Source: an uncultured Verrucomicrobiota bacterium
Lineage (GTDB): Bacteria; Verrucomicrobiota; Verrucomicrobiia; Limisphaerales; UBA9464
Direction: 5' to 3'
Assembly (NCBI GenBank): GCA_903880005.1
Contig: CAIRNV010000319.1
Span: 1-34,436, forward strand
DNA: 34,436 nucleotides
The position numbers and the translations under genes are program-made. This document shows, in pieces, positions 1 to 34,337 of the stretch; the stretch's first letter is position 1; every line of letters starts with the position of its first letter. The notes under the pieces are model-generated. The model made no database searches, had not been told where the DNA came from, and saw only the letters and a list, made by a program, of their open reading frames with translations.

Positions 1-140
1 AGTGATTGCGAAGCAGATGCTTGCGCAAGCCGAGGAGTGAGCGAGGCGCGGGCCGGTACGAGGCCCGTAACGAGCGAACGACGAAGGATTTGCGCAAGCA
101 GATCGAGCAAGCACGACCGATCCAACTGAATCGTTCCGGC
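1..140 (+). repeat. Family A structured repeat, copy A1 (5' end cut by window)
   Basis: The right terminal repeat CCAACTGAATCGTTCCGGC occupies 122-140 and is followed by TAA. The inner stem arms are TGCTTGCGCAA (18-28) and TTGCGCAAGCA (90-100), an exact 11-bp inverted repeat. Between them are purine-rich strands that each carry GAGCGA, and a central hairpin CGGGCC, 7-nt loop, GGCCCG. The left terminal repeat would lie before position 1. Arm spacing and the 40-nt distance from right arm to element end are the same in copies A3 and A4, so this is one family. What it does is not known. Confidence 0.85.
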
Positions 141-175
141 TAAGGCTGGAGTGGGACGGTCACGAATGGAGGCCG

Positions 176-6989: not shown

Positions 6990-7154
6990 ATGAAGGCCCA
7001 CCCATCGCGGATGGCAAGCGCGCCGTGCCGGCGCGTGAGGGCGACGGAAGCGAGGCGGGCCGATCTCCCGCAGGCACGGGACAACGATCGAACGACGAGG
7101 GAATTGCGGAGGCAGATCGAGCCAGCACGACCGATCCAATTGAATCGTCCCGGC
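6990..7154 (+). repeat. Family A structured repeat, copy A2 (diverged left half)
   Basis: The right third matches the family closely (GATCGAG.CAGCACGACCGATC then the terminal repeat CCAATTGAATCGTCCCGGC ending at 7154). The next three bases, TCA, are the reverse complement of the TGA stop of the topoisomerase gene, so the element is flush with that stop. The left half is degraded: the partner arm for TTGCGGAGGCA is not recognisable and the central hairpin is altered. The left boundary is estimated from the 165-bp length of copy A4. It fills most of the space between topB and the large secreted-protein gene. Confidence 0.6.
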
Positions 7155-9971
7155 TCAGGAATCGGGAAACTCGAACTCCACCTTGGTCTTGCCCTTGAGG
7201 ACGAGGTGGGCCTTGAAGGGCCGGCCGGACCGGCTGGTGAATCCATCGAGCAGGTCCGTGCGACCGTCCTTGATCAGCTTGCCAAGCTGCTCCGGCTCGA
7301 TGGCGCGCCCGAGGATCGTCCGTCCCACCTTGAAGGCGCAGCGCTTCTCGGCGGCCTGTGTGCGCTCGCAGACATACTGGTCCCCGCCCACGTAGATGGC
7401 GCCCTTGCACTTGGGGCAGGCGCCCAGGGAAGCCTGGCCCGTGAAGTCATGGACCACCGGGGCGGCGGCCGCCTTGCCGGGGCCCTTGCGTTCCCTGGGA
7501 GGAAACTCGAAGCCCACCTTGCCGTCCTTGTACACGAGGAAGGCCTCGAACTTCCGGTTGGTCTTCCGGGACACGAACCCCTTCAGCAGCTCCGTGCGCC
7601 CCTCCGCCAACAAGCGCCCCACCTGAACCCGGTCCACCGGTTGGCCCAGGATGATGGCGCCCGTGCGGAAGTCGCAGCTCTTGCCCGGCCCCACGGACTT
7701 CTCGCACATGTAGTTGACCCCGTTCTCGAACACGCGGGCGTGACACTTGGGGCAGGCACCCACGGGCTCCCGGCCCGAGAAGTCCACGGGCTTCTCCTCG
7801 CCGCCCTCGCCCTCGGCCCCGTCGTCGCCAAAGTCAAACTTGGCCTCGTGCTCCGCGTTGAGGCGCATCACGGCGGAGAACGGGCGTCCCAGCTTGGAGC
7901 GGAAGCCCTGCAAGGGGCCAATCTGGCGGTCGCGCACCAACGTCTCCACCTCCTCCGGGTCGAACATGCGCCCGGAGATGACCTTGCGGATGGCGAAGGC
8001 GCATTGCGTGCACTTGAACTCGCGGAACTTCTCGTGGACCTCGGACCCGCAACGCGGGCACGGCGTGGTCAGCTTGCCGAAGTCGCCCGGGATCGTGTCC
8101 TTGTCGTACAGCTTCGCCTTCCGGACCATCTCCTCGGTGAACTGGCGGATGTCGGACATGAACTCGTCACGGCCCAGGGTGCCCTGCTCCATCCGCTTCA
8201 GGCGGAACTCCCATTCGCCGGTGAGGTCGGGCCGGGTGAGCTCGGAGACGCCCAGGCCGCCGAGAAGCTGGATCAATGAGAAGGCCTTCGCGGTCGCCAT
8301 GAGTTCCCGTCCCTGCCGCAGCAGGTAGCCCTCGGTGATCAAGCCCTCGATGATCGACGCCCGCGTGGCCGGCGTCCCGAGGCCTCGCTCCGCCATGGCG
8401 TCCCGCAACTCGTCGTCCTCGACGGCCTTGCCCGCGCCCTCCATGGCGCTCAGCAACGTGGCCTCCGTGAAGCGCGCCGGGGGCTTCGTCGTCGATTCCT
8501 TCACGTCGATGGCCGTCGTCTGCACCGTCTCGCCGCTCCGCACCGGCGCGAGGTTCGGGGTCTCGTCGTCCTGGGCGGCCTCCTTCCCATAGACCTCCAT
8601 CCAGCCCGCCTTCACCAGCACCTTGCCCACGCTCTTGAAGGGCTCGCCCTCCACGCGCGTGACGCGCGTCGTCTCGAGGAACTCCGCGGCCGGATAAAAA
8701 ATGGCGAGGAAGCGCCGCGCCACCATCTCGAAGAGCTTCTGTTCCGCCTCGCTCAGCCCCTTGGGCACCACGCCGGTCGGGATGATCGCGAAGTGGTCGC
8801 TGACCTTGGCGTTGTTGAACACGCGCTTGTTCGGGCGAAGCCAGCCCTCGCTCAGGATGCGCCCGGCGAAGCCGCCAAAGTGCAGGCCGGCGGCCTCCGG
8901 CTCCGTCCATCCCTGCAGCGTCTTCCGCACGGTCCCGAGGTAGTCCTCCGGCAGGTGGCGCGAGTCGGTACGGGGATACGTCAGGACCTTGTGCCGCTCG
9001 TAGAGCGCCTGGGCGATGGCCAGCGTGTTCTTGGCGCTGAACCCGAACCGGCCGTTCGCCTCCCGTTGCAACGTCGTCAGGTCATACAGCAACGGCGAGA
9101 GCTGCGACGCCGCCTTGCTCTCCTCCGTCACCACCCCCGGCTTGCCCTCGCACCGGGCACGAATGCCCTCCGCGCGCTCCCGGTCCCACAAGCGCTCCGC
9201 CCGAAGGTCCACGTCGGCATCCTTCCCCTCCGGCTTGCGAAACGCCTCGTCAAACCAACGTCCCACGTAGGAGCCGCCCGATCCCGCGAACGTCCCCTGC
9301 ACCTCCCAGTAGGCACGCGGGACGAACCGTCGAATCCGGTCCTCGCGCTCCACCACGATGGCCAGCGTCGGGGTCTGCACCCGGCCCACCGTCGTCAGGA
9401 AGAACCCGCCCGACTTGCTGTTGAACGCCGTCATCGCCCTCGTCCCGTTGATCCCCACCAGCCAATCCGCCTCGGACCGGCATCGCGACGCGTCGGCGAG
9501 GGGACGCATCTCGGCGTCGGACCGCAGCCGCGCGAACCCGTCGCGGATGGCCTGCGGGGTCATGGACTGCAGCCAGAGGCGCTGGACGGGCTGCCGGGCG
9601 CCGGTGTAGGCGACGATGTTGCGGAAGATGAGCTCGCCCTCACGGCCGGCGTCGCAGGCGTTCACGAGCGTCTCCACGTCCTTGCGCTTCGCCAAGCGGG
9701 CCAGCGCCTTGAGCTGGTCCTGCCCCTTGTCCGTGGGGGCCAGCCCGAACCGCGGCGGCAGGTGCGGGAGCGCGGCGAAGGACCACTTGCCCTTCTTCAC
9801 CTCAAACTCCTCCGGCACCACCAACTCGAGCAAATGCCCCACCGCGAACGACACCACGGCGGCGTCGCTTTCATAGAAGGTGCCGGATTTGTCCTTCTTG
9901 AAGCCCCCCAGCGCCCGCGTGATGTCCGCGGCAACCGACGGCTTCTCGGCGATGATCAGTGGCTTGCCCAT
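7155..9971 (-). CDS. topB: DNA topoisomerase III (type IA)
   Basis: A 938-aa type IA topoisomerase that cuts and rejoins single DNA strands. The start at 9971 gives MGKPLIIAEKPSVAADI, the usual N-terminus of the Toprim domain; longer in-frame extensions are GC-rich read-through. Visible motifs are EKPS (9-12), the Toprim acidic motif DAGREGELIFR (107-117), SGGFFLTTVGRVQTPTLA (187-204) and the catalytic tyrosine in TYPRTDSRHLPEDY (Tyr332). The C-terminus is long: a CPRCG...CTQC zinc ribbon, then two more repeats starting GACPKC, each followed by a GFxSRxxRxFxAxLV unit. Three zinc-ribbon repeats make it longer than E. coli TopB (653 aa) and more like TopB/TopA variants of other phyla. The stop is the TGA touching repeat A2. 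It diverges from the alcohol dehydrogenase gene across about 240 bp (9972-10212) in which no clear signal was seen. Confidence 0.93.
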   Translation of the reverse strand: MGKPLIIAEKPSVAADITRALGGFKKDKSGTFYESDAAVVSFAVGHLLELVVPEEFEVKKGKWSFAALPHLPPRFGLAPTDKGQDQLKALARLAKRKDVETLVNACDAGREGELIFRNIVAYTGARQPVQRLWLQSMTPQAIRDGFARLRSDAEMRPLADASRCRSEADWLVGINGTRAMTAFNSKSGGFFLTTVGRVQTPTLAIVVEREDRIRRFVPRAYWEVQGTFAGSGGSYVGRWFDEAFRKPEGKDADVDLRAERLWDRERAEGIRARCEGKPGVVTEESKAASQLSPLLYDLTTLQREANGRFGFSAKNTLAIAQALYERHKVLTYPRTDSRHLPEDYLGTVRKTLQGWTEPEAAGLHFGGFAGRILSEGWLRPNKRVFNNAKVSDHFAIIPTGVVPKGLSEAEQKLFEMVARRFLAIFYPAAEFLETTRVTRVEGEPFKSVGKVLVKAGWMEVYGKEAAQDDETPNLAPVRSGETVQTTAIDVKESTTKPPARFTEATLLSAMEGAGKAVEDDELRDAMAERGLGTPATRASIIEGLITEGYLLRQGRELMATAKAFSLIQLLGGLGVSELTRPDLTGEWEFRLKRMEQGTLGRDEFMSDIRQFTEEMVRKAKLYDKDTIPGDFGKLTTPCPRCGSEVHEKFREFKCTQCAFAIRKVISGRMFDPEEVETLVRDRQIGPLQGFRSKLGRPFSAVMRLNAEHEAKFDFGDDGAEGEGGEEKPVDFSGREPVGACPKCHARVFENGVNYMCEKSVGPGKSCDFRTGAIILGQPVDRVQVGRLLAEGRTELLKGFVSRKTNRKFEAFLVYKDGKVGFEFPPRERKGPGKAAAAPVVHDFTGQASLGACPKCKGAIYVGGDQYVCERTQAAEKRCAFKVGRTILGRAIEPEQLGKLIKDGRTDLLDGFTSRSGRPFKAHLVLKGKTKVEFEFPDS

Positions 9972-11442: not shown

Positions 11443-11607
11443 GCAGAAGCGGTTCGGTCGGTGGGAGGACGAGGGCGCCGCAGATGCTTCCGCAAGCCGA
11501 GGAGTGAGCGAGGCGCGGGCCAGCACCAGGCCCGTCACGAGCGAAGGACGAAGGATTTGCGGAAGCAGATCGAGCAAGCACGACCGATCCAATTGAATCG
11601 TCCCGGC
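11443..11607 (+). repeat. Family A structured repeat, copy A3, between convergent stops
   Basis: Inner arms TGCTTCCGCAA (11485-11495) and TTGCGGAAGCA (11557-11567) form an exact 11-bp inverted repeat; compared with A1, the sixth pair is C-G instead of G-C. The central hairpin CGGGCC/GGCCCG has loop AGCACCA. The right terminal repeat CCAATTGAATCGTCCCGGC ends at 11607, and its last base supplies the G of the TAG stop of the ABC exporter (minus). The left terminal repeat is diverged (GGTTCGGTCGGTGGGAGG) and starts a few bases after the TGA stop of the alcohol dehydrogenase, so the left boundary is approximate. Confidence 0.82.
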
Positions 11608-13409
11608 TACGCTTCCGCCTCCAGCGCCGCGCGGTCGTCGTGCAGTCGGACGAGGCGCGCGTACAGGCCGCCGCGGCGCACCAGTTCATCGTGGCGCCCC
11701 CGTTCCTCCACCCGCCCGTGATTGAGCACGAGGATTTGGTCCGCCCCACGCACCGTGCCCAATCGATGCGCGATCACGAGGCTGGTGCGGTCGCGCATCA
11801 GCCGGTCCAAGGCGGACTGGATGGCGCGCTCGGTGGCCGTGTCCACGCTCGCGGTGGCCTCGTCGAGGATCAGGATGGGCGCATCCTTGAGGAGCGCCCG
11901 CGCGATGCTCACGCGTTGCTTCTCCCCGACGGACAAGCGCACCCCGCGTTCGCCCACCGGCGTGTCGAGCCCTTGCGGAAGCCGCGACACAAACGCCGCG
12001 CACTCGGACGCGGCCAGCGCCGCATCCACTTGGTCGGCCGACGCGTCGAGCCGCCCGTACAACACGTTTTCCCGGAGCGTGCCGTCGAAGAGGAACGGCT
12101 CCTGGCTCACGACCGCCACCTGCTGCCGCAGCTCCGCCAGCGGGATCTCCCGGATGTCGCGGCCGTCGATGCGGATGCACCCTCCCAACGTTTCTCGGAA
12201 CCTCGGGATCAACTGCACCAACGTCGTCTTGCCCGCGCCCGTCGGGCCCACCAGCGCGATGACCTCCCCGGGCCGCGCCACGAAGCTCACGTCCGACAGG
12301 ACCGGCCGTTCGCGGTCGTAGCCCGCAACGACCCCGACGTACTCGACATGGCCCTGCGCACGCCATCGGGCGGGTGGCGTGGCACCCGGGATGGCCACGG
12401 GCTCGGGATCGGCATCCAGGACGTCAAAGATGCGCTCGCCCGCCGATCGCGCCGACTGCGCCAATTGGTTGAGCCCATGCAACTGGCCGATCGGTTGGTA
12501 GAACATCCCGAGGAACAACAGAAACCCCACCAACTCCCCCGGCGTCATGCGGCCTTCGAGCACATGTCGCCCGCCAACCCACAGGACCGACACCATCCCG
12601 AGGGCGGCCACGAAGGTCATGCCGGGGTTGTACCAAGCCCACGCGCGCATCACCCGCAGCGTGGCCTCCCGAAGCGCCCCGGCGCGCTCGGCGAAGCGCG
12701 CGTCCTCGTGGTCCTCCCGCCCGAACGCCTTCACCTGCCGCACGCCCTGCAAGTTGTCCATGAGGAGCGCGTTCAACGCACCGCTGGCCTTGGATCGTTG
12801 GCGGTAACGCTCCCCGGCGGTCGTCGTGTACCAGGTCGCCCCGGCCGCCAGGAACGGCAACGGAGCCATCGCCACCCACGCGAGGACCGGGTTCGTGGCA
12901 AACAAGAACGCCGCCACGCCCACGATGCCGAGGATGGCCACCACGCCTTGCTCGGCCCCGTCGATCAGCAATCGCTCCACCGACCCAACGTCCTCGATCA
13001 CCCGGGTCATCAGCTCGCCGCTCGAACGCCGGTCAAACCATGCCGCGGGAAGCCGTTGAAGGCGGCCATACACATGGCGACGCAAATCCAGCACGACCGC
13101 CTGCTCGAAGGCGTTGTTCAGCCGGATCCGGACGCTGTTGAGCACGTCCCGCAGGAGATAGGCGGCCGCCAACCCGCCGATCGCCCAGCCCAGTCGCTCG
13201 GGCCGTCGCGCCACCAACACGTCATCCATCACGTATTGCGTGATCCGCGGGAACGCCATCGACGCCAACTGCCCCAGCACGGCGCAGCCGATCGTCCCCA
13301 ATGCCATCCAGGGGTACGGACGCAGGTAGCCCACCACGCGACGGGCCACCTGCCACGTCGTCATGCGCGGGACGGCCGCCCCGGACGGTGGCATGCCATG
13401 CTGCCTCAT
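11607..13409 (-). CDS. ABC exporter, fused membrane and ATPase domains (MsbA/MDR type)
   Basis: A 600-aa half-transporter expected to work as a homodimer in the inner membrane. The membrane domain (about 20-330) contains the six hydrophobic segments of the exporter fold and the coupling-helix region DLRRHVYGRLQRLPAAWFDRRSSGELMTR. The ATPase domain has Walker A GPTGAGKTT (388-396), Q-loop SQEPF (435-439), signature LSVGEKQR (492-499; the usual LSGGQ has become LSVGE), Walker B ILILDEA (512-518) and the switch histidine His548. The start at 13409 overlaps the tatC stop as TGATG, so translation is probably coupled to tatC. The TAG stop uses the terminal base of repeat A3. Substrate unknown; lipid or drug export is typical of the family. 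Confidence 0.92.
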   Translation of the reverse strand: MRQHGMPPSGAAVPRMTTWQVARRVVGYLRPYPWMALGTIGCAVLGQLASMAFPRITQYVMDDVLVARRPERLGWAIGGLAAAYLLRDVLNSVRIRLNNAFEQAVVLDLRRHVYGRLQRLPAAWFDRRSSGELMTRVIEDVGSVERLLIDGAEQGVVAILGIVGVAAFLFATNPVLAWVAMAPLPFLAAGATWYTTTAGERYRQRSKASGALNALLMDNLQGVRQVKAFGREDHEDARFAERAGALREATLRVMRAWAWYNPGMTFVAALGMVSVLWVGGRHVLEGRMTPGELVGFLLFLGMFYQPIGQLHGLNQLAQSARSAGERIFDVLDADPEPVAIPGATPPARWRAQGHVEYVGVVAGYDRERPVLSDVSFVARPGEVIALVGPTGAGKTTLVQLIPRFRETLGGCIRIDGRDIREIPLAELRQQVAVVSQEPFLFDGTLRENVLYGRLDASADQVDAALAASECAAFVSRLPQGLDTPVGERGVRLSVGEKQRVSIARALLKDAPILILDEATASVDTATERAIQSALDRLMRDRTSLVIAHRLGTVRGADQILVLNHGRVEERGRHDELVRRGGLYARLVRLHDDRAALEAEA

Positions 13410-16606: not shown

Positions 16607-18850
16607 ATGATCGCCCGCGTCACGCTCGAAGTTTCCATCCGGAAGGAGTTCGACTACGCGATTCCCGAGGGGCTCGCGGGCCACGTCGAGGTGGGGACAC
16701 GGGTGAAGGTGCCCTTTGGGCCGCGCATCGTGACCGGGCTCGTCACGGCCCTCGTCGAGGCATCGCCCCACACCAACCTCCGGTCCATCGACTCCATCGT
16801 GGGCGTCCCGGGCGTGGTCACGCCGCGCGTGCTCGATCTCGCCCGCTGGATCGCCGCGTACTACTGCTGCCCCGTCGAGGTCGCGCTCAAGAGCGTCCTG
16901 CCCGACTCCGTGCGGAAGGAAAACGCGCGGTGGAAGGAGCGGCTCCACGTGTCCTACCTGCCGCCCAAGGGCGATCTTCCCAAGCTCAGCCCGCGTCAAC
17001 GCGACGTGCTCCATGTCGTGGAGGAGATGCGTGAGCTGCCGTTGCAGGAACTGCTTCGCCTCGCGTCCACAACGCCCGACACCGTCCGGAAGCTCGAGGA
17101 CAAGGGCCTCCTCCGCATCGCGCCCCAGGTTGAGGACCGCGATCCCTACGCCCACGAGGAGATCATCCCCACCCAACCGCTCGCGCTGAACGCCGAGCAA
17201 GCGGAGGCGCTGGACGCCATCCGGGCGGGCCTCGCCCGCGCGGCCCCGGGGGCAGGCGACCCGCCGCCCAAGCCCTTCCTCCTGCACGGGGTCACCGGCT
17301 CCGGAAAGACGGAGGTTTACCTCCAGGCCATCGACGACGCCTTGGGACGCGGCATGGGAGCCATCGTCCTCGTGCCGGAAATCTCCCTCACGCCCCAGAC
17401 CGTGGAACGGTTCAAGGCGCGGTTCGGGCACGGCCCCCGGGCCACCAGCGTCGCCGTCCTGCACTCCCACCTCTCCTCCGGGGAACGGCACGACGAATGG
17501 CACAAGATCCGCCAGGGCCGGGCGAGGATCGTCATTGGCGCCCGCTCCGCCGTCTTCGCGCCGGTGGACAAGCTCGGGTTGGTGGTGGTGGACGAGGAAC
17601 ACGAGCATTCGTACAAGCAGGAGGAGGCACCTCGCTACCATGCCCGCGACGTCGCCGTGGTTCGGGCCGCCCGCGAGGGCGCCGTCGTCGTCCTCGGCTC
17701 CGCCACACCTTCCGTCGAGAGCTACTGGAACGCCCGCCATGGCAAGTACCGCCTGCTGGAAATCAAGGCGCGCGCGACCGACCACAAGCTGCCCGTCGTC
17801 CGCGTCGTGGACCTCCGGCTCGACTCGCGCCGCGCCGAGAAGGGCACCCCGGGCGTCTTCTCCGCCGCCCTGAAGGAGGCCATCGTCCAGCGCCTGGAAC
17901 GTCGCGAGCAAACCATCCTCTTCCTCAACCGCCGCGGCTACTCCACGTCCCTGCAATGCCCCCACTGCGGGTTCGTCGCGGGCTGCCCGAATTGCAGCGT
18001 CTCCCTCACGTTCCATCGCGCCTCGATGCGCCTCCTCTGCCACGTCTGCGGGCATGCCGAGGCCGCCCCCTCCGCCTGCCCCAAGCCCGAGTGCGGCCAC
18101 GCCGGCATCCGCTACGCCGGCCTCGGCACCGAACGCGTCGAGGAAACCCTTTCCCGCGTCTTCCCCAAGGCGCGCATCGCCCGCATGGACCGCGACACCC
18201 TCCACCGCAAGGAGGACTACCGGCGCATCCTCGGCGACTTCCGGTCCGGCCGCATCGACATCCTCGTCGGCACCCAGATGATCGCGAAGGGCCTCCACTT
18301 CCCCAACGTCACGCTCGTCGGCGTCCTCCACGCCGACCTCAGCCTGCACGTCCCCGACTTCCGATCGGGCGAGCGGACCTTCCAGTTGCTCACGCAGGTG
18401 AGCGGCAGGGCCGGCAGGGGCGACGTCGAGGGCGAGGTCTTCGTCCAAAGCTTCACGCCCTTCCACCCCGCCATCCAATTCTCGCGCCGACACGACTACC
18501 AAGGCTTCTACGAGGCCGAGGTGGAAACCCGCGAGGCCTTGAAGTACCCGCCGTTCTCACGCATCGCCCTCCTGACCCTCCGCGGCCGCAACGAGGACAA
18601 GGTCCGCCTCAGCGCCGAATACCTCCGCAAGGAACTCGACCGGCGCGTCGGCGCCTGGCCCGGCATCGTCATCGCCGGACCCGCTCCCGCGCCCCTGCTC
18701 AAGGCCGAGTCCTTCTTCCGGCACCAGCTCATGGTCCGCTGCAAGGCCATGTCCCGCCTCGCCCTCGCCCTCGCCCAACTCGAAGCCGAGGCCACCCTCC
18801 CCGAGGACGTCCGCCTCGTCATCGACGTGGACCCCGTGAGCCTCATGTAA
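16607..18850 (+). CDS. priA: Primosomal replication protein N' (PriA helicase)
   Basis: A 747-aa 3'-5' helicase that restarts stalled forks by loading the primosome. The N-terminal DNA-binding domain starts IARVTLEVSIRKEFDYAIPEGL. The helicase has Walker A GVTGSGKT (about 228-235), PEISLTPQT, the DEEH box (VVVDEEHEHSYKQ, about 327) and GSATPS. The zinc region at about 450-500 has CPHC, CPNC, CHVC and then CPKPEC. The last pair is spaced by four residues rather than two. C-terminal motifs include TQMIAKGLHFPNVTLVGVLHAD and QVSGRAGRG. The start at 16607 is supported by GAGGAGGGG about ten bases upstream. Confidence 0.96.
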   Translation: MIARVTLEVSIRKEFDYAIPEGLAGHVEVGTRVKVPFGPRIVTGLVTALVEASPHTNLRSIDSIVGVPGVVTPRVLDLARWIAAYYCCPVEVALKSVLPDSVRKENARWKERLHVSYLPPKGDLPKLSPRQRDVLHVVEEMRELPLQELLRLASTTPDTVRKLEDKGLLRIAPQVEDRDPYAHEEIIPTQPLALNAEQAEALDAIRAGLARAAPGAGDPPPKPFLLHGVTGSGKTEVYLQAIDDALGRGMGAIVLVPEISLTPQTVERFKARFGHGPRATSVAVLHSHLSSGERHDEWHKIRQGRARIVIGARSAVFAPVDKLGLVVVDEEHEHSYKQEEAPRYHARDVAVVRAAREGAVVVLGSATPSVESYWNARHGKYRLLEIKARATDHKLPVVRVVDLRLDSRRAEKGTPGVFSAALKEAIVQRLERREQTILFLNRRGYSTSLQCPHCGFVAGCPNCSVSLTFHRASMRLLCHVCGHAEAAPSACPKPECGHAGIRYAGLGTERVEETLSRVFPKARIARMDRDTLHRKEDYRRILGDFRSGRIDILVGTQMIAKGLHFPNVTLVGVLHADLSLHVPDFRSGERTFQLLTQVSGRAGRGDVEGEVFVQSFTPFHPAIQFSRRHDYQGFYEAEVETREALKYPPFSRIALLTLRGRNEDKVRLSAEYLRKELDRRVGAWPGIVIAGPAPAPLLKAESFFRHQLMVRCKAMSRLALALAQLEAEATLPEDVRLVIDVDPVSLM

Positions 18851-18911
18851 CCCAGGCCGGCGTCGTCGGAGGCCCGTGACGCGGGTTGCGCGGCATGAGG
18901 AGGAACGTGAT

Positions 18912-19235
18912 TCAACGCTCGGGACCGAACGCCACCCTGAACCCGAGGTTCCCCGCGCGGATGCCGGGCGACACCTTGTATCGAAACGCCGAACGGCAGT
19001 ACGGCGCGTCGTGGCCCCAACCGCCACCCCGCGCCACCCGGTCCGATCCGGAAACGGGGCCGGTCGGGTCCGTCACGCCGCCCTCGGGATAGCCACCCGC
19101 CCAGTCGGCGCACCATTCCCACACGTTTCCGATCATGTCGTACAAGCCCCAATCATTCGGGCTCTTCCCCTTCACCGGCTGGGGTAGCCCCGGCCCGTTG
19201 CCCAGCCACCAGGCGATGTCATTCAGCGCCCCGGC
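18912..19235 (-). pseudogene. C-terminal fragment of a SUMF1/formylglycine-enzyme-like protein
   Basis: This minus-strand frame is open from the element edge and reads [13 protein letters not shown]...[23 protein letters not shown]...[24 protein letters not shown]...[25 protein letters not shown] and RGG.W.....CR.A.R are hallmarks of the C-terminal part of the FGE-sulfatase (SUMF1) domain. Homology starts directly beside repeat A4, where the frame meets a TAA contributed by the element border. An internal ATG at 19175 might start a short product, but most of the domain is missing. It is best read as the 3' half of a gene whose 5' half is at 19404-19643. Confidence 0.82.
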
Positions 19236-19238
19236 TTA

Positions 19239-19403
19239 GCCGGAACGATTCAGTTGGGAGGGAAGTGATTGCGCCGCAGATTCTTTCGCAAGACGAGGAG
19301 TGAGCGAGGCGCGGGCCGGTTCGAGGCCCGTAACGAGCGAAGGACGAAGCTCTTGCGAAAGAAGATCAAGCAAGCACGACCGATCCAACTGAATCGTTCC
19401 GGC
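19239..19403 (+). mobile_element. Family A element, intact copy A4 with terminal inverted repeats
   Basis: The most complete copy, 165 bp. GCCGGAACGATTCAGTTGG (19239-19257) is perfectly inverted at 19385-19403, and TTA flanks both ends (19236-19238 and 19404-19406), a possible 3-bp target duplication. The inner stem arms TTCTTTCGCAAGA (19281-19293) and TCTTGCGAAAGAA (19351-19363) pair exactly over 13 bp. The central hairpin is CGGGCC, loop GGTTCGA, GGCCCG. It contains no transposase, so any movement would need an enzyme supplied elsewhere. It separates the two halves of a SUMF1-type gene. Confidence 0.85.
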
Positions 19404-19643
19404 TTAGACCACGACCACCTGGCCTACCGTTCCTCCCTCAACCTTGGCCCGCGCCGTCGCCCCGTCGCCGCCGCCGCCGCGAATCACGACGGCGGGCTCG
19501 ACCACGTAACCCGTGCCCCCTTGGGTCACCACGACGCCAACCACCGCCCCGCCCTCAAGCACGGCCACGGCCGTCGCCCTCTCACCAGCCCCCAAGCGGA
19601 GCCATGCGGCGCCCAACAGCCACATCCATCCCATCCATTTCAT
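19404..19643 (-). pseudogene. N-terminal fragment of the same SUMF1-type protein
   Basis: The 79-aa frame has a signal peptide (MKWMGWMWLLGAAWLRLGAG) and then ERATAVAVLEGGAVVGVVVTQGGTGYVVEPAVVIRGGGGDGATARAKVEGGTVGQVVVV. Glycine-rich ATA...GGxGY...GGGG.GA.A repeats of this kind precede SUMF1 domains in verrucomicrobial proteins (known family layout, not searched here). The start at 19643 has GGAAGGAA about eight bases upstream. The frame ends at a TAA formed at the border of repeat A4. With the fragment at 18912-19235 this looks like one gene interrupted by the element. About 150 residues of the middle are absent, so some DNA was lost too. Confidence 0.72.
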
Positions 19644-19839
19644 GAACGATTCCTTCCTTCCCATGCGCCGCATGGGACCAAACGTTCCATGGCCGGCACC
19701 GCGTCGTCCGAACGATCCTTGCCTTTTCCTTGCCCGATCCGCGTCGCAAAAAGGGCCTAGCCCCCCACAGGACACGGGCACCGCATCGCTTTCGTGTCTT
19801 CAACCGGCACGGGAATCGCTTTATCTTGCGGGAGCACGC

Positions 19840-22068
19840 ATGAAATCACCGGCCCGCGCCTTGCCGTCGTTGCTGTTGGCCTGCCTTGGATGTGCCGCCA
19901 TGCAGGCCGCGTCCACCAACTTGCTCTGGAGATGGTCCAATCCCCTTCCCTTCGGCGCCAACGTCACGGACCTCGCCGTTCGCTCCGGCGAACCCGTCGT
20001 GGCCGTCGCCGAATACGGGCAAGCCTTCGAGAGCGACGACCTGTCCACCTGGTACACCCTCGACACGGGCACCTCGCTGTGGCTCCGGTCCGCCACCTAC
20101 TTCGGGACCACCGCCACCAACACCGCCCGCCTCCTCGTCGTGGGCGCCGAGTCCGGCAACATCCTGGTCTCGCCCGACCGCTCCTCCTTCACCCGGGTCA
20201 GCCTCGGCACCACGGACTGGATCGAGTCGGTCGCGGCCTCCCCCAGCCAACTCGTCGCAGTCGGCGACCATGGAGCCATCTACACCTCGGGCGACGCCAC
20301 CAACTGGGTCCGACGCACCACGGCGGCCGTCGGCACCACCTGGCTTCGCGGTGTCACATGGCGCACCAACGGCGTCTTCTGCGTCGTCGGAGAGGGAGGC
20401 CTGGTGGCGACGAGCCCCAATGGCATCAACTGGACCCGCCAGGCCAGCCGCACCACCACGGCCCTCAATCGGGTCTCGCCCCTGCCAGGTGGTTTCGCGG
20501 CCGTGGGTGATGCCGGGACGGTCATCGTGGACAACTCGGGTTCCGGGACCAACTGGCGCGTCCTCTCCAGCGGCGCCACGAACGACCTCTACGCCGTCCA
20601 ACTCGAATACCGCGCCGACTACCCCCTCAATCCCGTGGGCGCCCTCCTCGTGGCCGGCGACGGCGAGCTCCGCTCCGGCATTGTGTCCCTCAACCTGTGG
20701 AGTGACGAAACCGACACGCGCCGGACGGCGCCGGCCCCCAAGGCGACGTACCTTGCCGGCTACTGGAACGCCACATCCGCCGTCTTCGCCGGCCGTGCCG
20801 GGATCATCGCCCGGGGCACGCGCCCGTTTCCCACGTCTGGCTTCAACTGGTCCCTCCTCGACTCGCCGCCCCGCAGTTGGCTGTTCTCCGCCGCGACCAA
20901 CACGGCCTATGGCACCAATACCGTCGCGCTCTTCACCAACAACGCCGTCGTGCTCCGCACCACCCGCACCACCAACCGCTTCGCCGTCGCCGTCGGCGAC
21001 GGCCCCACCATCCTTCAGTCCGACCGCGGCATCACGTGGTCCACGGCCCTCGTGCCCACCAATGCCTCCGGCCAGGTCATCCTGGGCGTCGCCACCCTGC
21101 CCGACCGCTTCGTCGCCGTGAGCTCTGGCGGGCTCATCCTGCAAAGCCCGGCCGCCTACGAACCCGTCGTCTCCACCAACGTCTTCACCAACTCCGCCGG
21201 GGCCACCCTTCGCGTGCTGCTCACCAATCACCTCAACACGATGGGCATCGCCTGGTACAACGCCGCCAAGCCCGTCACCAACACCCTCCAGGGCATCGCC
21301 GCCAACTCGCAACGCATGGTCGCCGTGGGCTCCGCCGGCGTCCTCCTCGCCTCCACCAACGCCATCGCCTGGTCACGTTCCTCCTCGCCCACCACGGCCT
21401 TCCTCTCGTCCGTCGAGGCCGGCCCGTCCGCTTGGGTCGCCTCGGGCGACCAAGGAACCTTGCTCTCGTCGCCCGACGGCCTCGCCTGGACCCGTCGAAC
21501 CACGGGAACCACCCAGTGGCTCTGGCGCACCCGCTGGGCCGGCGACCGCTTCGTATCCGTCGGCTACGGGGGCACGATCCTGACCTCCCAGGACGCCATC
21601 ACCTGGACGCCACGCGCCTCCGGCGTCACCAACCACCTCCATGACGTCGTCTTCGTCGATGACACGTGGTATGTCGTCGGCGGACAAGGAACCGTGCTGG
21701 GATCGCGCGACGCCGTGACATGGACCCGACTCGCCACGCTGACATCCAAGTCGCTCCAGGCGGTCGCCCACCTCGACGGTCGCCTCCTCGCCCTGGGGGC
21801 CGACGGCGCCATCCTGCGCGCCGTCATCCGCCCGTTTCCCGAGCCCGTTGGGCTTTCCCAATGGCCACATCAGGCGTTGGAAAGCGTCTTCCTCGCGACC
21901 GGCGAGCCGGGTCAGATGTTCCGCCTCGACCGGGGCACCAACCTCCTCGACTGGACCTCCGGTCCGCTCATGGAGATCCCCGAGGACGCCCTGTCCCTCC
22001 TCTTCATCGACTCCACCCCAAACGCTACCGACCGCCAGTTTTATCGCGCGCGACAGGCGACTCCATGA
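19840..22068 (+). CDS. Secreted BNR/Ycf48-like beta-propeller protein
   Basis: A 742-aa protein with a signal peptide (MKSPARALPSLLLACLGCAAMQAAS). The body consists of repeats of roughly 40 residues of the type W..R..G....L..V......FVAVG..G.I..S.DG..WT, for example VSVGYGGTILTSQDAITWTPRASGVTNHLHDVVFVDDTWYVVGGQGTVLGS. Such repeats build a beta-propeller like BNR/sialidase or photosystem-assembly Ycf48 proteins. The last ~70 residues (GQMFRLDRGTNLLDWTSGPL...ATDRQFYRARQATP) match a short C-terminal beta domain common in secreted Verrucomicrobia proteins. The start at 19840 follows GCGGGAG. The ligand is unknown; no catalytic residues were recognised. Confidence 0.82.
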   Translation: MKSPARALPSLLLACLGCAAMQAASTNLLWRWSNPLPFGANVTDLAVRSGEPVVAVAEYGQAFESDDLSTWYTLDTGTSLWLRSATYFGTTATNTARLLVVGAESGNILVSPDRSSFTRVSLGTTDWIESVAASPSQLVAVGDHGAIYTSGDATNWVRRTTAAVGTTWLRGVTWRTNGVFCVVGEGGLVATSPNGINWTRQASRTTTALNRVSPLPGGFAAVGDAGTVIVDNSGSGTNWRVLSSGATNDLYAVQLEYRADYPLNPVGALLVAGDGELRSGIVSLNLWSDETDTRRTAPAPKATYLAGYWNATSAVFAGRAGIIARGTRPFPTSGFNWSLLDSPPRSWLFSAATNTAYGTNTVALFTNNAVVLRTTRTTNRFAVAVGDGPTILQSDRGITWSTALVPTNASGQVILGVATLPDRFVAVSSGGLILQSPAAYEPVVSTNVFTNSAGATLRVLLTNHLNTMGIAWYNAAKPVTNTLQGIAANSQRMVAVGSAGVLLASTNAIAWSRSSSPTTAFLSSVEAGPSAWVASGDQGTLLSSPDGLAWTRRTTGTTQWLWRTRWAGDRFVSVGYGGTILTSQDAITWTPRASGVTNHLHDVVFVDDTWYVVGGQGTVLGSRDAVTWTRLATLTSKSLQAVAHLDGRLLALGADGAILRAVIRPFPEPVGLSQWPHQALESVFLATGEPGQMFRLDRGTNLLDWTSGPLMEIPEDALSLLFIDSTPNATDRQFYRARQATP

Positions 22069-23281: not shown

Positions 23282-23626
23282 CCTAAAAACGGCAGTGGGT
23301 GTGGGGACCAGTCAGGCCCTCAGGTGGAGCCAAAGGCTTGGCCCATGCTGTAGGCCGCGTGCCCTCACGCGGCGGCCAGGATGCCGCACTCCGAGCGTCT
23401 CTGAGATAGAGTGGCAGCGGCATCCTGCCGCTGGGCGTGATCCATCCAGAGCCGAGACGGCTCTGCCACGTTTCCGCCGGGTGAGGGCACCCGGCCTACC
23501 ACCCTGACCAGCCCATTCCAACCTCACCCGCCGGGTGAGGTCGCGGATGGATCCCACAGGGCTTCTTTGCATTGATGGGACGGCTCTTTCCTTGCCTTGA
23601 AGCCCCTTTCAACTGCCGCTTTTAGG
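23282..23626 (+). mobile_element. Family B MITE-like element, copy B1
   Basis: CCTAAAAACGGCAGT (23282-23296) is inverted with one mismatch at 23612-23626, and the 5-bp sequence TTCAG flanks both ends (23277-23281 and 23627-23631). That is the layout of a non-autonomous transposon of 345 bp. Inside are several hairpins: GCCGCGT/ACGCGGC (23354-23373, loop GCCCTC), GCCGGGTG/CACCCGGC (23476-23495, loop AGGG) and a CCTCACCC...GGGTGAGG palindrome near 23522-23540. No protein was recognised. It lies between the DUF3050 and Hsp70 genes, whose stops converge. Bases 23161-23276 before it hold only a small TGGTGC/GCACCA hairpin. Confidence 0.8.
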
Positions 23627-31186: not shown

Positions 31187-31814
31187 CCTGAAAACGGCAG
31201 GTGGGGTGAGGTTCAGCCACCCTCCCGGTGGAGCCAAAGGCTCGGCCCATGTTGTAGGCCGCGTGCCCTCACGCGGCGGCACGGATGCCGCCCCTTCGTG
31301 CGCCGGGCGAGGGCACCCGGCCATAAGCGTTAACCTTGATCTGCTTCATCTCCCCGTCAGGGGAACCGAGCACCATGGACGGCCCGCGAAGACACGAGTC
31401 CACGGACACGATCCGCGGGCACGAGAAGACCCTCTTTTTCGTGTATTTCGTGTGTTTCGTGGTTCCAACCCCTCGCCGCGCTCAAGCATCTCGCATGGCT
31501 CCCATGCATCTACCCGAAACAGCACGCCACCACCGCGACCCTGCATGCAGTGGGTCCACAGCTCAGCGTTTGTGGAACCACGAAATACACGAAAACCCGA
31601 GGCCACAAGCCCAAGGCAAGGGATGCCGCATCGGGCGTTTCGTGTCCGGACGTTCCAAGGTGAACGCCTATGGGGCACCCGGCCTACCACCCGGACCGGC
31701 CCATTCCAACCTCACCCGCCGGGTGAGGTCTCGGATGGATCCCTCAGGGCCGTCTTGCCTTGATGGGGCGGCCATTTCCTGGCCTTGAAGCCCCCTTCAA
31801 CTGCCGTTTTTAGA
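31187..31814 (+). mobile_element. Family B element, copy B2 (enlarged, nested)
   Basis: The ends CCTGAAAACGGCAG (31187-31200) and CTGCCGTTTTTAG (31801-31813) correspond to the B1 terminal repeats. Bases 31227-31281 match B1 23322-23375 almost base for base, including the GCCGCGT/ACGCGGC hairpin, and 31695-31813 match B1 23508-23626. The middle differs: B1's central part is replaced by about 350 bp that includes the inverted pair at 31435-31595. Unlike B1, no clean 5-bp flanking duplication is present. It lies within the remains of repeat A5. Confidence 0.72.
31435..31595. repeat. Inverted TTTCGTG pair nested in B2 (family C)
   Basis: The left arm (31435-31467) is a TTTCGTG-rich run ending GTGGTTCCA. 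The right arm TGGAACCACGAAATACACGAAAA (31573-31595) is inverted to it, with an extra TTTCGTGTG unit in the left arm. The spacer of about 105 nt shows no gene. It has the form of another small hairpin or MITE inserted in B2. Confidence 0.6.
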
Positions 31815-33854: not shown

Positions 33855-34337
33855 GACTGAAGTGCGGTGGAATTCAGCGCAGGAACCAACGGATGGAGAA
33901 CAAGAGGGTTCCGGCAGCGCCCTGGGCAAGCTTTTCCTCGATGCAAGTGATCCACGCACGCGCCCGGCATCCACCGCTGTCCGATGGGCGGCGGAAATTT
34001 TGGGTTCCCGACGTTTCGGGGGGAGGCACCGGGTCTCCGCTGGGGCGCATGATTTCGGGAAGGGACGGTCGTTTGATGTCGTCCATCGGGAGGCAATGGG
34101 GGGCGATGTAGGAGGGGGATCGGGGTGAGGATGGACCCGAATCCCCGCGCAAGGAGGACGGAAGCTCTCGATCCACAAGCGGGTGAGTGGCGGCAGGCTG
34201 GATGCCAACACGCCATGGTAGCGGATGGGCGTGCACCCCGGCTTGATCAACCACGTGCCTGCCTTCCTCGTGTCCTCGTATGAGCCATTCCCTGCTTCCT
34301 GACTCACGAGATTGCCGAACGAGGCAAGGTGGATCCG

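Follow-up and report, generated by a model that had tools for sequence, protein, structure and literature searches.

In the window, by which is meant the whole stretch of 34,436 nucleotides analyzed from an uncultured Verrucomicrobiota bacterium, a SUMF1-type gene lying between priA and a repeat-protein gene (18850-19840) is split by a MITE of a repeat family here called family A. The split gene was classed as a pseudogene because its middle is absent and its frame is stopped. The reading favored here, and held with moderate confidence, is that a deletion and a stop codon came first, that the MITE was inserted into the decayed gene later, and that the element was moved by a helper of the IS1380 family. 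The features concerned are collected in Table 1.

Table 1. The split SUMF1-type gene, the duplicated target and the family A copies of the window
Feature	Position	Strand	Remarks
5' (N) half of SUMF1-type gene	19407..19643	minus	79 codons, then in-frame TAA inside target duplicate
Target duplicate CTTAG, N-half side	19403..19407	none	
MITE copy A4	19240..19402	none	163 bp, perfect 18-bp inverted ends starting CCGG
Target duplicate CTTAG, C-half side	19235..19239	none	
3' (C) half of SUMF1-type gene	18912..19235	minus	FGE-sulfatase C-terminal third, in frame with 5' half
Family A copy A3	11443..11611	none	81% to A4; missed by full-copy scan
Family A copy A2	6990..7158	none	61-64% to reference copies
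Family A copy A1	1..144	none	cut by contig start; end match at 122-140

The two halves of the SUMF1-type gene

Translation showed the positions given for both halves in an earlier note on this DNA to be exact. The N half consists of 79 amino acids with glycine-rich repeats behind a signal-peptide-like start, the start having been judged by eye, and the C half consists of 107 amino acids followed by a stop codon. In a Pfam search, the C half matched the FGE-sulfatase family PF03781 (E 2.7e-21), and the N half matched no family above the cut-off. Profile positions 164-254 of 255 alone are present, so the domain is incomplete and the split gene represents a remnant rather than a working SUMF1 member. 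The likeness to the glycine-rich-repeat form of the SUMF1/FGE-sulfatase family lies in the C half, which makes up the C-terminal third of the domain, and in the N half, which aligns with the repeats of homologues that are intact; the difference is that the middle of the protein is gone and the frame is stopped. The element and one 5-bp duplicate together amount to 168 bp, a multiple of three, and the two halves share one frame.

The N and C halves were searched separately against 39 genomes, comprising that of the bacterium itself (G000, referred to below as the own genome) and those of 38 relatives. All 39 genomes gave a match to the C half, and 23 gave one to the N half. With the own genome set aside, the top match of both halves was the same intact gene of 390 amino acids in a genome of the same genus (G007:C167), which was 61% identical to the C half (E 3.7e-36) and 55% identical to the N half (E 6.9e-16) and which carries the matching parts in the same order and on the same strand as the window. 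Its lead for the C half was slight, with G023:C154 following at 5.3e-36 and an intact paralogue on contig C451 of the own genome at 1.2e-35; this paralogue was likewise matched by both halves. Of the open frames collected, the C half was matched by 49 and the N half by 31, and 23 frames matched both halves, with overlapping loci counted repeatedly. SUMF1 genes are multicopy in the own genome, in which 12 C-half matches were found, including that of the window.

Alignment to homologues showed that homology reaches the insert from both sides. Given their common best relative and their agreement in order, strand and frame, the two halves very probably belong to one SUMF1-type gene, as the earlier note had proposed from their layout. 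Its statement that the middle of the domain is missing was right as to the absence but not as to the size, which is 204 residues by comparison with G007:C167 and 212 by comparison with the C451 paralogue, rather than about 150. The alignment to an uninterrupted orthologue that the note had called for could be made with homologues at other loci, both halves aligning to G007:C167, although not with an orthologue at the same locus.

The family A element and its target

The family A repeat has four copies in the window. At its length, A4 is too short for a transposase gene, and it combines the short length, terminal inverted repeats and lack of a transposase that mark a MITE. Its predicted fold is a long hairpin (-75 kcal/mol, z -7.3). 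The suggestion that a family A element had inserted in the gene was upheld in substance, but the perfect inverted ends are 18 bp long and not 19 bp. The 19-mer at the end of A4 gave 335 forward and 330 reverse matches with at most two mismatches in the own genome (5.02 Mb), compared with 0 forward and 0 reverse for the reversed 19-mer, which excludes chance. The own genome carries about 330 copies of family A. The many copies expected of a MITE are therefore present, in agreement with a definition that includes up to several hundred copies in the part of the source consulted (PMC4133298). The own copies examined individually were drawn from the first of the 665 end matches and from a scan that scored 40 of 637 candidates, and counts among them are lower bounds.

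The target consensus of family A is CTNAG, 5 bp in length. In a set of 50 own copies, defined as matches extending from element position 12 or below to position 160 or above with 30 bp of flank, the flanking 5-mers were identical in 19, and none of the 50 agreed at 6, 7 or 8 bp. The middle base N was equal in 36 of these copies, compared with 14.5 on shuffling (maximum 25 in 2000). One copy each had ATTAG/ATTAG and TTTAG/TTTAG flanks, which shows duplication of the outer base as well. Under second criteria, by which end pairs had to lie 100-260 bp apart with no more than four mismatches per end, identical flanking 5-mers were found in 21 of 54 own copies, 5 of 9 copies from the closest relative (G004) and 5 of 16 copies from other records; the 21 of 54 own copies show for family A the target duplication that belongs to the definition of a MITE. 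Among the own copies with CTNAG on both sides (n = 27), N was equal in 18, compared with 7.7 after shuffling and with no more than 16 in any of 5000 shuffles. For the small G004 and other-record sets, shuffles also reached the observed agreement at N. Both the 50-copy and the 54-copy own sets are samples of the roughly 330 copies. The other 9 of the 27 copies differ at N, possibly because of recombination between copies, mutation or misassembly.

At A4, the flanking TTA that had earlier been read as the target turned out to be part of a longer duplicate, the 5-bp CTTAG present on each side of the element. A 3-bp TNA duplication, which the flanks had first suggested, was dropped because 5 bp fits better (19 of 50 identical). 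A 3-bp TNA duplication is the rule in the IS1031 group of the IS5 family, and affiliation with that group was rejected, since family A does not follow this rule and the candidate helper transposase is of the IS1380 family. A preference for stop codons at gene ends, considered because CTNAG holds a stop codon, was not supported. Frames that terminate in the duplicate did not exceed controls in length, with a median of 44 codons for 55 sides and of 42 codons for 71 control CTNAG sites (p 0.51); frames of 200 codons or more were counted at 9 of the 55 duplicate sides and 4 of the 71 controls.

Further observations were made on family A copies outside the window. The intact SUMF1 paralogue is closely followed, downstream of its end, by a more divergent copy (84%; L100, G000:C451, 2719-2883). 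Tandem or back-to-back copies with a period of ∼168 were seen on C393, C268, C432 and C422 of the own genome, in each case near a contig start, and at G004:C473 (7487-7821); this period fits a shared 5-bp spacer. On G000:C31 (L213, 1-240), a truncated DDE_Tnp_1-type transposase gene borders directly on two tandem copies, of which the first is incomplete at the contig start, so that a mobile gene appears to have been cut by the element. The window also holds other dispersed repeats, at 23485-23625 and 31673-31813 (10 BLAST rows), at 23323-23387 and 31227-31291 (19 rows) and at 34133-34281 (4 rows), where the rows include the query and overlapping loci and derive from searches of own and G004 stretches.

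Order of deletion and insertion

The CTTAG duplicates of A4 are perfect and read CTAAG on the gene strand, which places a TAA in frame on both sides of the element. If A4 is a plain insertion, the sequence before insertion already held this stop. The two duplicates are the only CTNAG sites now present in 18851-19840, so that there were few targets to choose from. On the C side, the first codons beyond the element are Ala-Gly. The junction was compared with distinct homologous contexts whose alignment reached it, 20 for the N side and 26 for the C side. Three frames contribute two contexts apiece, and some N-side contexts come from repeats in proteins that have no SUMF1 match. After a VVVV stretch, the N-side homologues continue as x-A-G, with Ala in 12 of 20 and Gly in the next place in 20 of 20. 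The C-side homologues have Tyr, His, Asp and other residues before the aligned column and Ala in 0 of 26; the aligned column itself is Gly in 14 of the 26 contexts and is thus uncertain in some. Since the C-side codon fits the N-half register, the joint left by the deletion is probably situated a short way beyond the element, which would make the deletion a separate and earlier event.

These data suggest the following course. A SUMF1-type gene with glycine-rich repeats and an FGE-sulfatase domain would have sat between priA and the repeat-protein gene, would have lost ∼200 codons through an in-frame internal deletion and would, in its decayed form, have acquired an in-frame TAA codon. A 163-bp MITE would then have entered the CTAAG containing that TAA and duplicated these 5 bp and, having no gene of its own, would have been moved in trans by an IS1380-family transposase encoded elsewhere in the genome. 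That the deletion and the stop preceded the insertion is probable from the sequence; the evidence for this order is modest, consisting of a single codon, the argument from the stop codons and the perfect duplicate, with the pre-insertion sequence read off by eye. The deletion-first reading must accept as a coincidence that the insertion took place within a few bases of the deletion joint.

In another reading, two MITE copies in an intact gene recombined, deleting the middle and leaving one copy, or one copy caused an adjacent deletion. In its favor, the deletion ends no more than 1-2 codons from the element on both sides, and the unequal N in 9 of the 27 CTNAG-flanked own copies indicates that copies may recombine. 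A living gene would, however, have needed an in-frame TAA at both former sites, and the end of the deletion would have had to fall exactly at the element. Moreover, unrelated CTNAG sites would be expected to leave a perfect 5-bp duplicate in about 3 of 10 cases (7.7 of 27 when shuffled), and the first C-side codon beyond the element agrees with the N-side register. Recombination between two copies, which the earlier note had put forward as the source of the deletion, is thus disfavored by the register of that codon, the perfect duplicate and the paired TAA codons, and this course is regarded as doubtful.

The arrangement might also be produced by the assembly, either because the middle of the true gene is flanked by two copies or because the contig is a chimera of two loci fused at the repeat. 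The own genome assembly is a draft of 492 contigs, and at 15 of 30 element loci (L009-L038) a contig end is no more than 1.5 kb away. Among the copies compared, A4 has its longest exact match, 108 bp, with a copy on C12 that has a SUMF1-type gene nearby, and the order priA, SUMF1 and repeat-protein gene was unseen in the relatives examined. The flanks of the C12 copy are, however, unequal (CTAAG and CTCAG), and an exchange with it would have given A4 unequal flanks; that the flanks of A4 are equal therefore argues against a swap. The sequences on the two sides of A4 are also halves of one gene in one frame. The C12 SUMF1-type gene, considered as a possible location of the missing middle, was rejected as too distant, being 37% identical in the C half and 28% in the middle. 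A search of the own genome with the missing middle gave 10 matches, among which there was no close orphan middle and the best was the intact C451 paralogue (60%). An artefact of this kind is regarded as improbable, and an assembly error at A4 is unlikely. On C12, a 906-codon open frame with a SUMF1-type match (L295, 255-2972, minus) runs through the family A copy at 2809-2971.

No intact syntenic orthologue was found at the priA loci of relatives or at the repeat-protein loci of the same genus. With ∼1.5 kb of flank examined, SUMF1 lay beside priA at 0 of 29 relatives' loci, one of which is cut inside priA and one of which has 387 bp behind it, and beside the repeat-protein gene at 0 of 8 same-genus loci. 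In G001, G005, G006 and G007, priA is followed by a different pair of genes, and the contig of the closest relative, G004, ends inside priA. priA and the repeat-protein gene were not within 1.5 kb of each other at the relatives' loci examined. A lineage-specific rearrangement at the priA/SUMF1/repeat-protein locus is likely, and the unusual adjacencies of priA and the repeat-protein gene, which are not at the element, give no pointer to a join at A4. That the halves derive from two different SUMF1-related genes abutting by chance at the element is highly improbable because, although relatives yielded no same-locus orthologue, the own genome holds multiple SUMF1 copies (the 12 C-half matches) and the second and third C-half matches nearly equal the first, a single gene is the best relative of both halves and order, strand and frame agree.

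A candidate helper of the IS1380 family and the spread of family A

A 463-amino acid transposase with nearly the same end as the MITE behind its gene is encoded on contig C131 of the own genome. This protein, one of 13 PF01609 matches in five genomes, scored 242.4 bits with the NCBIfam IS1380 model NF033539 (cut-off 180) and 131.7 with PF13701 (cut-off 34.7), as expected of a DDE transposase of the IS1380 type; a PF13586 profile search of five genomes gave matches in 0 of 5. MITE copies lie beside the transposase match at two other own loci among the PF01609 matches. The insertion sequence (IS) with the C131 transposase is 1.5 kb long, with its right end followed by CTAAG and its left end truncated where the contig begins, and its transposase gene is the one full gene of this kind found in the own genome. 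Two further left ends, each preceded by CTAAG, were found where contigs C18 and C21 stop inside them. Both ends of one IS copy were seen on no contig examined, so that CTAAG is recorded at the right end on C131 and at left ends on C18 and C21. The MITE and the C131 IS have 16-17 of the first 18 bases in common (compared by eye), with a 13-base exact match. The possibility that the MITE is a simple internal deletion of the helper IS was not borne out, as just 9-11-base matches were present beyond the ends.

In G038, which belongs to another family of the order, a transposase 63-68% identical to that of C131 is split over contigs C142 and C106. The same right end followed by CTAAG lies ∼56 bp behind the gene match on C106, and the same left end on C142 has CTAAG alongside on the strand read (CTTAG on the strand of the gene). 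Searches of G004, G007 and G023 revealed no transposase of the C131 kind, though these genomes have the MITE. On the basis of the matching ends, the matching CTAAG flanks and the presence of the transposase in the same genome, family A would most likely have been moved in trans by the C131 IS1380-family transposase.

IS1380-family elements typically have ends starting with CC and duplicate 4-5 bp of target. The likeness of the present system to this family, exemplified by ISEcp1 and IS1247, is that the candidate helper passes the NCBIfam cut-off; the differences are that A4 is without a transposase and resembles the helper IS in its ends only, and that family A has a strict CTNAG target. IS1247 is given as an IS1380-family element with IR 16/13 and DR 5 in the accessible part of PMC3281130, a 5-bp duplication like that of family A.

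Matches to family A were found in 8 of the 39 genomes, the own genome included, and copy numbers per genome are lower bounds because at most 21 candidates were scored in each. Long matches occur in G000, G004, G007, G023 and G035. G035, whose matches reach 77% along the whole element, represents the one additional family in which long copies occur; G012, G028 and G038 have short pieces only. The exact 19-mer end is present in at least 51 stretches of the genome collection, and 48 of the 51 listed are titled as Verrucomicrobia or a subgroup; among the other listed stretches are a bacterium, a Planctomycetaceae metagenome genome and one Pseudomonas, the last possibly a chance match.

As far as the accessible portions of their descriptions extend, bacterial MITEs such as the TIMEs of Pseudomonas, MITEPye1 of Paracoccus and Correia elements are like family A in being shorter than 300 bp, in having inverted ends that match an IS, in producing duplications and in lacking a gene; the stable hairpin of A4 is a further likeness to bacterial MITEs. 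According to the same portions, the helpers are Tn3 for TIMEs and IS1182 for MITEPye1, in contrast to the probable IS1380-family helper of family A. The verrucomicrobium O. terrae has many GTAG palindromic repeats, which, from the part of PMC3733652 consulted, are of a different kind. No MITE of the IS1380 type or from Verrucomicrobia appeared in the titles and abstract openings searched, a scope that covers little of the subscription literature, and the literature search found no paper with both CTNAG and IS1380. The SUMF1 pseudogene and the mobile element are both of ordinary, known kinds. What may be new is the affiliation with IS1380, the CTNAG target and the number of copies.

For the SUMF1-type gene alone, little is settled beyond its classification as a pseudogene. 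The family A repeat, by comparison with what was first noted of it, now has a class, true ends, a 5-bp target and a probable helper IS. This helps in annotating uncultured Verrucomicrobia, in whose draft genomes contig ends are often close to a family A element, and unequal CTNAG flanks offer a way of spotting possible misjoins or recombined copies. Tentatively, family A may represent a successful IS1380-moved MITE family with a strict CTNAG target and ∼330 copies in one genome, its interior common to at least two families of one verrucomicrobial order and the same ends found on an IS in a third, and it could perhaps be a major reason why assemblies break and genes decay in these uncultured bacteria.
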